Below, piece by piece: positions 20,136 to 25,716 of a DNA stretch of 42,169 nt. The stretch's first letter is position 1; every line of letters starts with the position of its first letter. The DNA comes from Bacteroidia bacterium (GTDB lineage: Bacteria; Bacteroidota; Bacteroidia; B-17B0; Aurantibacillaceae). Where the stretch lies: NCBI GenBank assembly GCA_025451115.1, contig JANWKZ010000107.1, forward strand, positions 1 to 42,169, in the 5' to 3' direction. The notes beneath the pieces were generated by a model that was not told where the DNA came from, made no database searches, and was given only the letters and a program-made list of their open reading frames with translations. The translations under genes were made by a program, and so were the position numbers.

Positions 20136-21806
20136 TTATCGCACAGCCATCGGCAGATCTTTCGGCGCTTTCACGCTGTAAGAGAAATTAATATGTTTGG
20201 TATCTTTCGATTTGATGCTGAGCCTCCAGGTAAGCGCACCGGTTGATTCATTATAACCCGCTCCCGATAACTCATCTTTTGTTATCGTGATCTGCTTAGA
20301 GTGATTTAGCGGTAATTGATCTACAACCTGCACCTCAATTGATTTCGAGTTTCCGTTCTTTACCACTATTTCATAGCCAAAGGAATATATTTTGTCATCG
20401 TTCAGTATTTTTTCCTTGATCTTATCTTTTTGCTTGTAACGTTTAACCACCACGTTGTCGTCCTTGCCGAGCGTCAGGTCCAGCGTATCATTGGCTACGG
20501 CCGGGTTAATATAACTTTGTCCGATATAGGTTCCATTGTAAAAAATACTCGCTTTGCCGGCCAACAGGTTCAGATCTTCCCAACCGGTAACACGCGCAAG
20601 CAAGTAAGCATTTACGTCGGCCTTAGGCACAACTTTATACATGTACTTCGTATTTAGATCTTTTTGCAAAACAGCAACCGTATGTTTTTTATTATCGGAT
20701 GCTATCGAGTAAGGGAGTTTGATCTCAAAAGTAGCCTGCACTTGCTGATCATCCATGGTCACAAATTCGTAAGCCTGCTGCGCTTCTTTATCAATGCTTA
20801 AAGTCATATCCGAATAAGTATCGCCTGTAGTTGTGGTGGTAGGTTTTGGTTCCCCATTAAAGTTTTTCTGGTTGTAACGGTCGGCATGTTTAAGTTTTAA
20901 TTCGTCAATATACCAGGTATTAAGTTGGGGGGCCTGCAAATTAGCTTGCGGATTGCCTGTTGAAAGAACGAGTTTTACATTGCTCCAATCGATACCGGTT
21001 TGCTGGTGCACAAGACCTTTGTAGGTAAGTTTCACCGACGACTCAACGCCTTCGGTGCGCAAGTCGTACATAGGTTCCCATCCTGCTGTAGTTACATAGT
21101 AATTAATGGTAAGATTCGCCAAAACAGGCGCATCGCATAGCAGGCTAACAACCACGCGGTGATTAGCTTTATAATTGGCATTGTAATTATCATCCCCCAG
21201 ATCGGTCTGTATGCCGTTCAAGCGATTTTGCAAACCTTGTTTGCTTTCCTGCAATTTTGCAGTTTCCTTTTTCAGGGCATGCATTTCAGTATAGATCAGG
21301 GTTAGTTTTTCTTTTAAATAGGTAAGTCCATCCTTTAAAAAAGCCAGGGAGTCCTTCCGTGAATCTCCTTTGTATAAACGATAATTGAGCAATACGTTCT
21401 TTTCTATGCTTAAAACTTCATTCTTATAGGCTATGTCTTCCAGCTTGTAAGCTATCAGTCCGATCGAATCATTGATCTGTTTGATGAGTTTAACGTATTT
21501 CAGATCGGTTGGATTCTTTAATTTCTCAAGTTCAGGCATTTTATCGCCATACTCGGTTTCGGTAATTATAAAATTTCCGTTTCCGCCGGCCTGTATGCTG
21601 GATGGGCTGATCCCGTCTTCCAGCGATTCGAAGATGATCTTATTTTCTCCGGCAACCAGGGCAACAGGCGCGGTTCGGAAGATCTGTGCGCCACTATTAT
21701 AGACCACCACTTTCTCGGGCTTGCTTTTAACGTTTTTTTCTGCCTCTCCACCTTTCAGGGTAAAAAAAGAGCCAATAAATAAAGGGATGTAAATGAGCGT
21801 TTTCAT
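20136..21806 (-). CDS. DUF4139 (MuiA-like) secreted protein
   Basis: A 556 aa protein with a signal peptide (MKTLIYIPLFIGSFFTLKGG). The N-terminal half has the DUF4140-like start VVVYNSGAQIFRTAPVALVAGENKIIFESL, followed by a coiled-coil stretch of about 100 residues rich in Lys, Leu and Glu. The C-terminal half is the DUF4139 domain (LTINYYVTTAGWEPMYDLRTEG; YEIVVKNGNSKSIEVQVVDQLP). The family is named after a mucoidy inhibitor A relative, but its biochemical role is unknown. It is divergent from the ECF sigma gene with 82 nt between starts, so joint control is plausible. Confidence 0.85.
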   Translation of the reverse strand: MKTLIYIPLFIGSFFTLKGGEAEKNVKSKPEKVVVYNSGAQIFRTAPVALVAGENKIIFESLEDGISPSSIQAGGNGNFIITETEYGDKMPELEKLKNPTDLKYVKLIKQINDSIGLIAYKLEDIAYKNEVLSIEKNVLLNYRLYKGDSRKDSLAFLKDGLTYLKEKLTLIYTEMHALKKETAKLQESKQGLQNRLNGIQTDLGDDNYNANYKANHRVVVSLLCDAPVLANLTINYYVTTAGWEPMYDLRTEGVESSVKLTYKGLVHQQTGIDWSNVKLVLSTGNPQANLQAPQLNTWYIDELKLKHADRYNQKNFNGEPKPTTTTTGDTYSDMTLSIDKEAQQAYEFVTMDDQQVQATFEIKLPYSIASDNKKHTVAVLQKDLNTKYMYKVVPKADVNAYLLARVTGWEDLNLLAGKASIFYNGTYIGQSYINPAVANDTLDLTLGKDDNVVVKRYKQKDKIKEKILNDDKIYSFGYEIVVKNGNSKSIEVQVVDQLPLNHSKQITITKDELSGAGYNESTGALTWRLSIKSKDTKHINFSYSVKAPKDLPMAVR

Positions 21807-21845
21807 AGGGTTTGTTTTTAGTTTTATATGTAGATAGCATTTAAA

Positions 21846-21887
21846 GGGAAATTCCATAAAATTCCGTATTTTTATATGGTAATTCCC
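21846..21887. promoter_or_regulatory. Imperfect palindrome in front of the ECF sigma gene
   Basis: GGGAAATTCCATA (21846-21858) and TATGGTAATTCCC (21875-21887) are inverted copies matching at 11 of 13 positions with a 16-nt centre. The right arm ends 1 nt before the TTG start, and the whole sits between the divergent DUF4139 and sigma genes. It may be an operator or a start-masking hairpin. Confidence 0.45.
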
Positions 21888-21888
21888 A

Positions 21889-22482
21889 TTGAAAAAACAC
21901 AAAGAAAATAGCGAACTAACCGACCTGGAGCTTCTGGCCCTTTACCGCGATACGCGCAATAAAGAGCATGTGGGTGTTTTGTACAAACGCTATTCGCACC
22001 TGGTATTCGGTCTTTGTATGAAGTATTTCAAGGACGAGGACCAGGCCTACGACGCCGTTACCAATATTTTCACGAAACTTTTTGATGATCTGCTTAAGCA
22101 TAAAGTAGATTTTTTCAAAAGCTGGCTCTATACTTATAGCAAGAACCACTGTTTGATGGTGCTTCGATCTGCCAAAACCGCTCTTCGTAAATCGCTGGAT
22201 TACAGCAGTGATATGAAAGTTATTATGGAAAACAGCGAGGAAGAGCATCATAAAGCAAACAAGCGCGAAGAGGAATACGCCCTGCTGGAAAAAGCCCTCG
22301 GCGACTTGAGTGATGAGCAACGATTGTGCGTGGAATTATTTTATCTGAAAGATAAAAGCTACGCCCAGATCGTGGAAGTAACCGGATATGACCTGAATAA
22401 GGTTAAGAGTTATATCCAGAACGGAAAACGCAACCTTAAAATTATGCTTGAACAAAGCAATGGACAACAAGGACAAACATAA
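21889..22482 (+). CDS. ECF-type RNA polymerase sigma factor
   Basis: A 197 aa sigma-70 family protein with regions 2 and 4 only. Region 2 spans LTDLELLALYRDTRNKEHVGVLYKRYSHLVFGLCMKYF to FFKSWLYTYSKNHCLMVLR. Region 4 is LEKALGDLSDEQRLCVELFYLKDKSYAQIVEVTGYDLNKVKSYIQNGKRNLK, with the helix-turn-helix. An in-frame stop lies four codons upstream and no ATG precedes region 2, so the start must be the TTG at 21889. Its last 23 nt overlap the next gene, whose product is a membrane protein with a cytoplasmic N-terminus, the usual place for an anti-sigma factor. Confidence 0.92.
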   Translation: MKKHKENSELTDLELLALYRDTRNKEHVGVLYKRYSHLVFGLCMKYFKDEDQAYDAVTNIFTKLFDDLLKHKVDFFKSWLYTYSKNHCLMVLRSAKTALRKSLDYSSDMKVIMENSEEEHHKANKREEEYALLEKALGDLSDEQRLCVELFYLKDKSYAQIVEVTGYDLNKVKSYIQNGKRNLKIMLEQSNGQQGQT

Positions 22483-23971
22483 CATATTCAGCAAGGAGGA
22501 ATTCTTTAAGTCGATCGACGAGAAGAAGTCGCTGCCTGCCGGAGCCGACGATTTTGACAAGGAGGCTTTGGAAGGACTTGCTATGGTTACCGATAGAAAG
22601 AAGCTTGATTCGCTGAACGATTCTCTAGACGAGGTTTTGAGGCTTGAGGCCGCCAAAGCACGTAAAAAGAAAACCATTTATTTTTTGTCGGTAGCCGCTT
22701 CTTTAGTGCTTATCGTTGGGCTTTTCTTTATTATGAAGGAAAACACACTTAATAAGGAAGCCGATAGCCTGGCCATCAACAATCCGGAAAAAACCGAAAG
22801 TGTTAAACAGGTAGGTGAAAGCATGGCAACTGTTACAGAAGAAAAAGCTCCTGCTCCACCTTCTGATATGATCTCTGCTGCTGAAGTAAAAAGCAAAGAG
22901 GTTTTAGAAGATACGAAGTCGCAAAAGGACGAAAGTGGCCTGGATAATACAGTTGCTTCGGGTGCGGCGATCTCTGTTCCCGCCGAAGAAGTTGCTGAGA
23001 ATAAAGTTACTCTTTCGATGAATGAGAAGGCCAACACTAAGGAAGTAGCGGCCGATCGTTTGGATGCCAACCAGGAGGGTAAATCGGGTGCTAAACCCGG
23101 CAAGGGTGATGTCTCTTTCGGAAATACAGAAAAACTGAAAAAAGAAGAAGCCCAAAAAAGGGATGAAGATGTGGCGTACAAAAAAACGCTTGAGGAAGAC
23201 GAGAAGAAGAAAAAAATGTATTACGAGACCAATACCATTTGGGTAAGTGATAAGGACGCCAAGGAAAGTGATAAGCTGAAACAAAAAAGCCTTGCAAAAT
23301 CAGAGGCGAAGCCTTCTGCCACCTCTACCGGTGATAACCGTAACCAGCCCGTAAATGTGGTTACCACAACCAACACGGCTCCTGTACAAACACAAGACCA
23401 GGAAGTGACGGTTAGCGGCAAATTGATGGACGATCAAAGCAAGGTAGATGATGCCCCCGCTAAGAATGCAGAACTGCAATCGACGAGCCAGCCTGTTACG
23501 AAAAAGGTAACGCAAGGCCCATTCTCCAAAAAACACCGTTCCAAGACAAGAAAAATAAAGGCCTCTTTTGGCAGTGAACCTAAGACCGATAAGAAAGAGC
23601 CCGATGCCGTTGAAAAAGAAAGGGCCGGTTACGCATCCTATGAACAGAGTGGCACCCGTGATCTTAAATCGCCCGAATTCATTGGCGGAAAAGAAGCTTT
23701 GCAGGAGTATGTAAAAGGTAATTTAACGATATCAGAGCCGTCGAAGACCGGAACCATTGTGTCGGAATTTACTATTAAGCCCGACGGCAGTGTGGATACG
23801 GGCAGTGTAAAGGTCACTACCCCCATCAAAAAATGTGACCCTTGTAACGAGGACGTTAAGCGTATGGTGAAGAAAATGCCCAAATGGCAGCCCGCGCGCG
23901 AGAACGGCAAGAGCAAGGAGTACCGCCAGAAACTTTCGGTTGATTATGACGCCGAAATGATGAAAAAATAG
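22460..23971 (+). CDS. Membrane-anchored protein with TonB-like C-terminal domain, candidate anti-sigma partner
   Basis: A 503 aa protein with one membrane helix (about residues 72-92, KTIYFLSVAASLVLIVGLFF). The ~70-residue cytoplasmic head includes DDFDKEALEGLAMV, a motif seen in related Bacteroidota membrane proteins. After the helix comes a ~310-residue low-complexity region rich in Lys, Glu, Ala and Ser. The last ~95 residues resemble the TonB C-terminal fold (GGKEALQEYVKGNL, GTIVSEFTIKPDGSVDTGSVKV, MPKWQPARENGK). The ATG at 22460 overlaps the sigma gene. The gene order suggests that it senses an envelope signal and holds the sigma factor, but no classical anti-sigma domain is recognisable, so that role is inferred. 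Confidence 0.75.
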   Translation: MDNKDKHNIFSKEEFFKSIDEKKSLPAGADDFDKEALEGLAMVTDRKKLDSLNDSLDEVLRLEAAKARKKKTIYFLSVAASLVLIVGLFFIMKENTLNKEADSLAINNPEKTESVKQVGESMATVTEEKAPAPPSDMISAAEVKSKEVLEDTKSQKDESGLDNTVASGAAISVPAEEVAENKVTLSMNEKANTKEVAADRLDANQEGKSGAKPGKGDVSFGNTEKLKKEEAQKRDEDVAYKKTLEEDEKKKKMYYETNTIWVSDKDAKESDKLKQKSLAKSEAKPSATSTGDNRNQPVNVVTTTNTAPVQTQDQEVTVSGKLMDDQSKVDDAPAKNAELQSTSQPVTKKVTQGPFSKKHRSKTRKIKASFGSEPKTDKKEPDAVEKERAGYASYEQSGTRDLKSPEFIGGKEALQEYVKGNLTISEPSKTGTIVSEFTIKPDGSVDTGSVKVTTPIKKCDPCNEDVKRMVKKMPKWQPARENGKSKEYRQKLSVDYDAEMMKK

Positions 23972-24052: not shown

Positions 24053-24574
24053 ATGCGCTTTTTGCGGGGATACATATTGCCTTTTTCGTTCCTTTTCCTG
24101 GTGGCTTGCCACCCAGGGAAAGATACAGCCTCTTCAAATACATCGAATGAAGCCTCTAAAAGCGTAATGACCAAATACTCCGGGATCATTGGGATCCCCG
24201 AAAAAGAACTCAATAAAAAACTGGTGTACTTTGTGGATTCGTGGTATGGTGCTCCCTACAAATGGGGCGGCGGCGAAAAGAGTGGCGTTGATTGCTCGCA
24301 CCTGGTTTGTCGCGTATACAAAGACGTATACAACAAAAAGATAGCAGGCACGGCCAACGATCTCGAAAAAATGAGCAGCAATGTAAAAGAAAGCAAATTG
24401 AAAGAAGGCGACCTTGTGTTCTTTAAAATAGAAAGCGAAAAGATCTCACATGTGGGTGTTTACATTGCCAACAATAAATTCGTACATGCCTCGGTAAAAA
24501 AAGGAGTGATCATAAACAGCCTAGAAGATAAATACTACAAGAAATATTTTTACTCCGGAGGAAGAATACAATGA
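24053..24574 (+). CDS. NlpC/P60 lipoprotein (C40 peptidase)
   Basis: A cell-wall peptidase that probably cleaves peptidoglycan peptide stems. The N-terminus is a lipoprotein signal ending LVAC, so the mature protein is lipid-anchored. The NlpC/P60 catalytic Cys is in KSGVDCSHLVCRVYKD and the His in KISHVGVYIANNKFVHAS. The ATG at 24053 (173 aa) is preferred to a TTG two codons upstream. Its stop overlaps the start of the next gene as ATGA, so the two are translationally coupled. Confidence 0.9.
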   Translation: MRFLRGYILPFSFLFLVACHPGKDTASSNTSNEASKSVMTKYSGIIGIPEKELNKKLVYFVDSWYGAPYKWGGGEKSGVDCSHLVCRVYKDVYNKKIAGTANDLEKMSSNVKESKLKEGDLVFFKIESEKISHVGVYIANNKFVHASVKKGVIINSLEDKYYKKYFYSGGRIQ

Positions 24575-25716
24575 TAAAAATGACCATCCCCGCAACCACG
24601 CGCTTAAGTATTGTTAAAAGCATCCTGTCACTGTTCCTGATCGCAACCGTAGCCTGCACCTGGCCGCTTTGGTCGGCAGATCGTTATTATCCGGTGTTTC
24701 CTGGGCTTGCGTTTTTATCTTCCGTAAATATGATCGTTGCGTATGCTATACCGGCTTTACTGATCATCAGTCTCGTTCTGGCTTTCCTGCTTCGCAATCC
24801 GCGTTTCTTTATTTTTCTTGCCACGGTTTTATGTGTTAGTCTGCTTTTGCTTGATTCAGGTCGCCTTCAATACTGGTTCTATTTTTATTTCTTATTACTG
24901 GTTGTATTGCTTGGATACAACTGGAGGGTAGACAGCATTCATCATTACACCTCAACTTTCAACGCTGTTAAAGTTGTTCTCGTCTTGGTCTATCTCCTTG
25001 CCGCCCTTCAGCATTTTCGCGCCGATTTCATTCATGTTCAATGGCCCGCCTTCATCAAGCCATTTGAAAGATTCTGGACGCCTGAGCAGTGCGCCTATCT
25101 TTTAAAGATCGCTTATGTTATTCCGGCATTGGAGTTATTTGTTTCCGTGTCTTTATTTTTCGGAGGAGCAAAGATCGCAGGCATCAGCTTTTCGATCCTA
25201 TTTCATGTTTTTTCATTGATCGTTATTTTCCTTCAGCCGCAAATTGAGATTGCAGTGGTGCTCTGGCATTTTTGCATGATACTTTTGGTGCTGTTCGTGT
25301 TCGGCGGTTCTACCACCACACAAAAAAATTACTCCTTCGCGTTCGGACTCTACCCCGTTTGCATGATCCTGCTTTTCGGATTAGCGCTGCCTTTCTACTG
25401 TTACTTCAATGATAAACCCATGAAGAACAGGATCGATCTCATGCAATCGAATAACGCCGTACAATACATTTACCTCACCGAAGAAAGCCGGGACAAACTT
25501 CCGCTCTATATCCAGAGCTTTGCCATGCAAAAAGAAAATGAATTCTATAAACTGAATATAACTGCCTGGGGCCTTCACGAAACAAAAACAAAGCAGGTGT
25601 TAGGCAGCGCGCATTTAATGAAACTTACTTCTGATCTTAACACCAATTACGGAGCCGATGCATTGGTAGCGGTTCCGATAACAGAAAACACAAGCGGCGT
25701 TATCGCCTTAAAATAA
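24571..25716 (+). CDS. Multi-pass membrane protein (HTTM/DoxX-like), function unknown
   Basis: A 381 aa protein with about nine hydrophobic segments (for example FFIFLATVLCVSLLLLD, VKVVLVLVYLLAALQHF and VVLWHFCMILLVLFVFGG) and a ~100-residue soluble tail. The stretch LVYLLAALQHFRADF followed by WPAF recalls the HTTM/MauE-like families, but the match is weak and I would not assign a reaction. It is coupled by an ATGA overlap to the NlpC/P60 lipoprotein. Its last 9 nt overlap the convergent nadE gene. Confidence 0.65.
   Translation: MIKMTIPATTRLSIVKSILSLFLIATVACTWPLWSADRYYPVFPGLAFLSSVNMIVAYAIPALLIISLVLAFLLRNPRFFIFLATVLCVSLLLLDSGRLQYWFYFYFLLLVVLLGYNWRVDSIHHYTSTFNAVKVVLVLVYLLAALQHFRADFIHVQWPAFIKPFERFWTPEQCAYLLKIAYVIPALELFVSVSLFFGGAKIAGISFSILFHVFSLIVIFLQPQIEIAVVLWHFCMILLVLFVFGGSTTTQKNYSFAFGLYPVCMILLFGLALPFYCYFNDKPMKNRIDLMQSNNAVQYIYLTEESRDKLPLYIQSFAMQKENEFYKLNITAWGLHETKTKQVLGSAHLMKLTSDLNTNYGADALVAVPITENTSGVIALK

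Follow-up and report, generated by a model that had tools for sequence, protein, structure and literature searches.

A conserved ECF sigma factor, its TonB-fold membrane partner, and exbD/tonB as part of their predicted regulon

Introduction

TonB is the protein that powers nutrient import across the outer membrane. Bacteroidota depend on many SusC/TonB-dependent transporters that are driven by few TonB complexes, and we know of no explanation of how TonB supply is matched to demand in these bacteria. A locus of a Bacteroidia bacterium (family Aurantibacillaceae) raises a related question: why does the gene of an extracytoplasmic function (ECF) sigma factor overlap the gene of a membrane protein that ends in a TonB-like domain? 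The locus lies on contig JANWKZ010000107.1 (C107 in our numbering), the whole of which (42,169 nt) was analyzed and is called the window here. It belongs to a 2.75-Mb genome (GCA_025451115.1, completeness 73.6%). We found that the ECF/membrane-partner unit with a TonB-fold domain is real and conserved. With moderate confidence, we read it as a sigma/anti-sigma switch with a TonB-like sensor, the predicted regulon of which contains the TonB energy transducer.

Results

Pairing of the sigma gene with the membrane protein gene

The sigma factor contains only the sigma2 and sigma4 regions and, with 197 aa, has the ECF length of about 200 aa. Its matches to Sigma70_r4_2 (1.6e-9) and Sigma70_r2 (5.8e-7) were both past the Pfam cut-offs, and TIGR02937 scored 72.7 bits against a cut-off of 42.9. 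The initial annotation, made from the sequence alone, had reported a TTG start and a 23-nt overlap with the membrane protein gene, and both were confirmed (Table 1). Translational coupling of the two genes is predicted from this overlap, which is 1 to 44 nt long in most relatives.

The sigma gene was sought in 100 relatives. Strong homologues were present in the majority, and 80 loci were then fetched around the matches. A further 80 loci were taken from a named genome collection, including Pedobacter, Pontibacter, Adhaeribacter, and Perlabentimonas. In nearly all of the first 80 loci, a same-strand open reading frame (ORF) overlapped or abutted the sigma gene, and it encoded a protein with a helix beginning at residue 49–116. 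Every one of the additional 80 loci had a co-directional partner, overlapping in 72. The helix was found in 159 of 161 partners.

The initial annotation held that the pairing would be accidental if homologues of the membrane protein occurred mostly without an ECF gene. A profile of the head and helix alone (A2) was searched against 101 genomes. All 57 confident head matches (E ≤ 1e-5) were located immediately 3' of a homologous sigma gene; none occurred without an ECF gene. Because head matches were always behind the sigma gene, the pairing was not accidental. Among 61 family genomes, 48 had both genes, 13 had neither, and none had a single one (Fisher p = 1.5e-13 with relatedness ignored). 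That the two genes form an obligate pair is well supported by these genome comparisons.

The cytoplasmic head and class I zinc anti-sigma domains

The membrane protein was confirmed to have a short head, one helix, a charged linker, and a TonB-like C-terminal domain. A Pfam scan of it gave no match to FecR or zf-HC2. FecR was also absent from the 25 most frequent families in a scan of 70 partners, 11 of which matched zf-HC2. Across the 161 pairs, 57 had a zinc-type head, in which H-x3-C-x2-C is followed by SDALEGL. Compared with the PDB, a profile of these zinc heads gave weak matches, the best of which were the anti-sigma factors DdvA, RslA, and ChrR. A second group of heads, including those of Pedobacter, is full-length and has DPFVAEALEGL in place of the cysteines. 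The heads of the window's clade have DDFEKEALEGF, preceded by a shorter stretch. The H-x3-C-x2-C signature is absent from the window's head; within class I anti-sigma domains it varies, as many carry it and some do not (PMC7406223).

Homology of the heads was judged by HMMER scores against 558 unrelated background N-termini. When the profile was built from the intermediates, every background sequence (maximum 6.4 bits) was outscored by 54 of 57 zinc heads and by all 61 window-type heads; the window's head scored 16.4 bits. With the zinc-head profile, it scored 11.2 bits (background maximum 5.9). The hhalign scores were discarded, as column-shuffled alignments scored equal or higher. This chain of profiles links the N-terminal domain to known class I anti-sigma domains, and the scores and alignments indicate that the window's head derives from a zinc anti-sigma domain of class I and no longer has the zinc ligands. 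In the sigma tree, 21 of 22 sampled window-type heads fell in one supported branch and zinc heads were widespread, suggesting that zinc was probably lost in the window's clade. The earlier view that the protein shows no FecR or zinc anti-sigma domain therefore holds for domain matches and fails for ancestry. The rest of the head appears to resemble the helices with which class I domains bind sigma4 and sigma2; CnrY likewise retains these two helices (PMC7406223). We consider it very likely that the membrane protein is an anti-sigma factor.

The TonB domain and its exchange

TonB_C matched residues 429–497 (E = 2.7e-5) with 24.9 bits against a Pfam cut-off of 24.6. When a profile of the far domain was compared with the PDB, TonB chains ranked first (E = 2.7e-7). 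The AlphaFold 2 model of the domain had a pLDDT of 91 and the order helix-strand-strand-helix-strand. In Foldseek, the top matches were TonB domains, including those solved with FoxA, TbpA, and BtuB, and TolA III was also matched; the probability was about 1 at the top and the E-values were all above 0.001. These results identified the far end as a genuine TonB C-terminal domain. The TonB of this genome is encoded after exbB-exbD-exbD, and the window protein has neither the N-terminus, the linker, nor the neighborhood of the TonB type. Its linker contains 17% K+R, 18% D+E, and 5% P.

The far domain was of the TonB type in 98 of the 161 pairs, of the TPR type in 46, and of other types in 17. 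TonB-type pairs were present in Pedobacter (L166), Pontibacter (L157), and Perlabentimonas (L155). In a quick tree, the far domain switched at least 12 times. It is thus a swappable domain, TonB-like or TPR.

A CxxC pair (KKCDPC, 23834–23845 in the window) was observed in the TonB-like domain. It is common to genus relatives and several others, and also occurs in one TonB (L234). A redox role is possible.

A two-block motif upstream of muiA

The divergent DUF4139 gene beside the sigma gene was confirmed, and NCBIfam names its product "mucoidy inhibitor MuiA". The initial annotation had also pointed to an inverted repeat abutting the sigma start and had proposed a search for a shared promoter motif there. 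The 11-of-13 repeat is present. It is weak in itself, as shuffling the intergenic region at constant composition reached its score in 3 of 60 runs. In an intergenic alignment with four genus relatives, its right arm was not conserved and its left arm was strongly kept. The palindrome was ruled out as an operator on these two grounds. Its left arm instead forms part of the −35 block of a predicted promoter, which is directed to muiA.

The consensus of this motif was TTTATGGAAT-N14-CATCT, and its two-block layout is that of an ECF promoter. The window's muiA site is slightly off consensus, with TATC where most sites have CATC. In family genomes, both blocks also precede muiA orthologues distant from the sigma gene (most of L201–L216, L220, and L223), and the GGAAT-to-ATC spacing was 15 nt in nearly all muiA orthologues. 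Because the motif stays with muiA even far from the sigma gene, muiA is best seen as a predicted regulon member of the sigma factor. Adjacency of DUF4139 as a general rule was rejected, as it was seen only in the window's genus and at L040, L077, and L079.

Across the 100 genomes, the motif gave 192 matches versus 22 for the reversed control. It occurred 2.41 times per genome with sigma versus 0.375 times per genome without. At intergenic sites, columns left unfixed by the search were conserved (C before ATC, 98%; T after it, 84%; AA further on, 97%). Of 53 measured sites, 46 began 44–66 nt upstream of ATG, and only 6 of 68 sites were inside a same-strand ORF.

Motif sites at exbD and tonB

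The genes that recurred downstream of the motif were exbD (14 sites) and tonB (L234 and L250), together with genes of alpha-2-macroglobulin proteins, muiA, and genes of OmpA-family proteins. In the window's genome, the motif preceded a SIMPL/DUF541 gene and, with one mismatch, an alpha-2-macroglobulin-like start and two further genes. An additional site was located between exbB and exbD-exbD-tonB (L314), a position at which it would act as an internal promoter of exbD/tonB.

The motif at exbD or tonB was scored promoter by promoter and counted as present with 13 or more of 15 positions. Among sigma-bearing genomes, 32 of 39 had it, compared with 1 of 11 genomes lacking sigma. This single genome (G004) has a completeness of 56%, and its contig ends at the muiA start, just where a sigma gene would be expected. 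The sigma-less members tested from three genera (G003, G035, and G016, each 99% complete) had no such motif, which most of their relatives keep. These three genomes hold only distant ECF sigma factors. It is highly probable, judging from this distribution, that the regulon includes exbD/tonB, the TonB energy-transducer genes. This link is an addition to the initial annotation, which had missed it.

Other features of the locus and of the motif sites

The coordinates are collected in Table 1. The NlpC/P60 gene and the membrane protein gene that follows it stand after the anti-sigma gene in the window and at L035, L038, L045, and L077, and not in most relatives. No motif was found before the NlpC/P60 gene.

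Table 1. Features of the locus, numbered from the first letter of the window.
Feature	Positions	Strand	Basis or remark
MuiA-like secreted protein (DUF4140 + DUF4139), predicted regulon member	20136..21806	−	Pfam DUF4139 2.4e-53; TIGR02231 4.3e-80
Predicted ECF promoter of muiA, TTTATGGAAT-N15-ATC	21833..21860	−	−35 TTTATGGAAT 21860–21851; −10 ATC 21835–21833
Inverted repeat, 11 of 13, arms 21846–21858 and 21875–21887	21846..21887	.	Right arm not conserved
ECF sigma factor (sigma2 + sigma4, 197 aa, TTG start)	21889..22482	+	Pfam, NCBIfam, homologues in relatives
Sigma/anti-sigma gene overlap, 23 nt	22460..22482	+	Sequence
Predicted membrane anti-sigma factor (head, one helix, long linker, TonB C-terminal domain), 503 aa	22460..23971	+	
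Cytoplasmic head, residues 1–72, motif DDFDKEALEGL; zinc-less, shortened class I anti-sigma domain	22460..22675	+	Alignments, profile scores
Single transmembrane helix, about residues 73–92	22676..22735	+	Hydrophobicity
Charged low-complexity linker, about 305 residues (about 96–400)	22745..23659	+	Composition
TonB-like C-terminal domain	23660..23950	+	Pfam, PDB profile, AlphaFold 2, Foldseek
NlpC/P60 peptidase, lipoprotein-like	24053..24574	+	Pfam NLPC_P60 1.2e-27; neighborhoods; belonging uncertain
Multi-helix membrane protein, no Pfam match	24571..25716	+	Follows NlpC/P60 gene; belonging uncertain

On the sigma strand, no good motif indicating autoregulation was found at the loci examined, L087 and L097 excepted. 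The sigma genes of genus relatives also start with TTG or GTG, and a conserved TAnnTTTA is located upstream (21862–21889 in the window). It resembles the −7 box of Bacteroidota housekeeping promoters, and a low, constitutive sigma supply is possible.

Many family genomes (L106–L111, L113, and L114) carry an additional sigma gene, a paralogue with about 40% identity. Its partner is a TPR-type membrane protein of 330–345 aa with a still shorter head, and this pair may read the same promoters.

Three further proteins recurred behind the motif. A family of 170–195 aa with CHENWD...GAFC..C was found at 15 sites, and the member scanned had no Pfam match. It starts with M(K/E)xSIxxPCHENWDxMTPNxxGAFCxxCxKxVVDFS (L301:1104-1616, L279, L298, L305, L306, L308, L310, L312, and L313) and is sometimes in tandem, with a separate motif for each copy (L305 and L306). 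A 71-aa secreted protein (L299:4352-4564) and a 212-aa membrane protein (L302:3958-4593, weak DUF6789) each recurred in several genomes.

Discussion

The simplest reading of the pair is an anti-sigma factor that would hold the sigma factor at the inner membrane and release it on a periplasmic or outer-membrane signal. The head is suggested to keep the sigma factor inactive there. With a linker of roughly 300 residues, the TonB-like domain could extend to TonB or to the TonB boxes of transporters in the outer membrane. Under a deficit of working TonB at the transporters, or under envelope disturbance, this contact may pull on the inhibitor, rearrange it, or lead to its proteolysis, and so free the sigma factor. 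The freed sigma factor would raise ExbD/TonB and envelope proteins (MuiA, alpha-2-macroglobulin, SIMPL, and OmpA-like proteins). The net effect would be negative feedback on TonB capacity. Both the binding of sigma by the head and the sensing step are what we infer from the arrangement.

A TonB-fold sensor on a long tether, together with exbD/tonB in the predicted regulon, points to the occupancy or supply of TonB as the signal. That the domain senses TonB boxes or the state of TonB is possible, at somewhat below an even chance. The full homeostat is more tentative: a TonB-mimicking anti-sigma factor would compete for TonB boxes (or bind TonB), report shortage relative to transporters, and release the sigma factor for the internal exbD-exbD-tonB promoter. 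The initial annotation had proposed an envelope-sensing unit. Its core is supported by the conserved unit, the TonB-fold domain, and the envelope role; the role of the palindrome and the identity of the head had to be corrected.

Several points weigh against the reading of a TonB-sensing switch. The relatives compared were mostly metagenome-assembled genomes. The p-values take no account of relatedness; the three within-genus contrasts nevertheless agree. An AlphaFold 2 model of a sigma-head read-through fusion (P0001, with one +1 step inside the overlap and alignment rows from sigma only) gave a head pLDDT of 39–81 and a pTM of 0.44, values that speak neither for nor against contact. Some related genera have a degenerate TonB_C. 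In G015 and G021 the exbD motif persists, and L099, the pair obtained from G021, has a TPR far domain, indicating that the regulon does not require the TonB-like sensor.

The last case also favors the strongest alternative, a general envelope-stress anti-sigma factor for which the TonB fold is one of several interchangeable periplasmic sensors (of peptidoglycan or misfolded proteins, for example), and exbD/tonB is one envelope target among many and not the sensed quantity. The exchange of the far domain among TonB-like, TPR, and other types and the muiA, alpha-2-macroglobulin, SIMPL, and OmpA-like genes in the regulon point the same way. However, no far domain is commoner than the TonB-like one (98 of 161), exbD/tonB are among the most recurrent targets, and a TonB fold would be unexpected in a sensor of general damage. 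Taken in full, this alternative is rather unlikely, while a broader envelope signal as such is about as likely as a TonB signal.

It is improbable that the motif belongs to another co-occurring regulator (the paralogous sigma/TPR pair, for instance, or a factor not seen here) and that the pair controls something else. The motif-sigma link is a correlation only, and the paralogous pair, present in many family genomes, may share the promoter. But the two-block motif has a constant spacing and the ECF layout, the losses of sigma and motif agree within genera, and the window's genus has the motif at muiA and exbD yet no close paralogue listed. Finally, the true TonB fold and the single N-terminal helix, as in TonB, would suit an energy transducer or scaffold co-transcribed with the ECF gene by chance, but this is very improbable: the head shows homology with zinc anti-sigma domains, neither the N-terminal sequence of Bacteroidota TonB (e.g., NDLVFEGRNQSYGAYEIR in L250) nor its proline-rich linker is present, and 46 of 161 pairs have a TPR far domain.

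Read as a sigma/anti-sigma switch, the pair resembles several known systems. Like the class I zinc anti-sigma factors RsiW, RslA, ChrR, and DdvA (PMC7406223), the membrane protein has a short cytoplasmic N-terminal domain right behind the ECF gene and one helix, and its homology to them runs through zinc-bearing and zinc-less intermediates of the same family. Unlike them, the window's clade has lost both the zinc ligands and the segment preceding the last helix, the far domain is TonB or TPR, and the window's head matches no Pfam model. Dma (PMC13088901), also from Bacteroidota and beside an ECF gene, likewise has an anti-sigma head, one helix, a long disordered tether, and a C-terminal domain that possibly reaches the outer membrane. 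Its far domain is a beta-barrel, whereas a TonB fold is present here. Its partner is an ECF21 sigma factor; the window's sigma factor was classed here at the level of ECF. Dma governs vesiculation and polysaccharide loci; here exbD/tonB, muiA, and others are the predicted targets. FecI/FecR similarly combines an ECF sigma factor with a single-helix inner-membrane regulator and is tied to TonB-dependent transport. Here there is no FecR domain and no TonB-dependent receptor gene in the cluster, the regulator itself bears the TonB fold, and the TonB machinery is a predicted target. With the TonB energy transducer, the protein shares the C-terminal fold and one inner-membrane helix, but it has another N-terminus and a linker with 5% proline and is coupled to an ECF gene instead of exbB/exbD. 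In the literature searched, we found no paper on a TonB-domain anti-sigma factor, an ECF pair with DUF4139, or such a regulon. ECF/anti-sigma pairs as such are already well known.

A recognized class I anti-sigma domain was found for only 6% of Bacteroidetes ECF sigma factors (PMC7406223). The pair partly fills this gap, and the series from the zinc head through the zinc-less "DPF" head to the short "DDF" head shows why some anti-sigma factors could be missed. DUF4139/MuiA gains a regulatory context. The promoter motif is precise and hence directly testable. A widespread pair with a TonB-fold sensor suggests a way in which TonB supply may be matched to demand.

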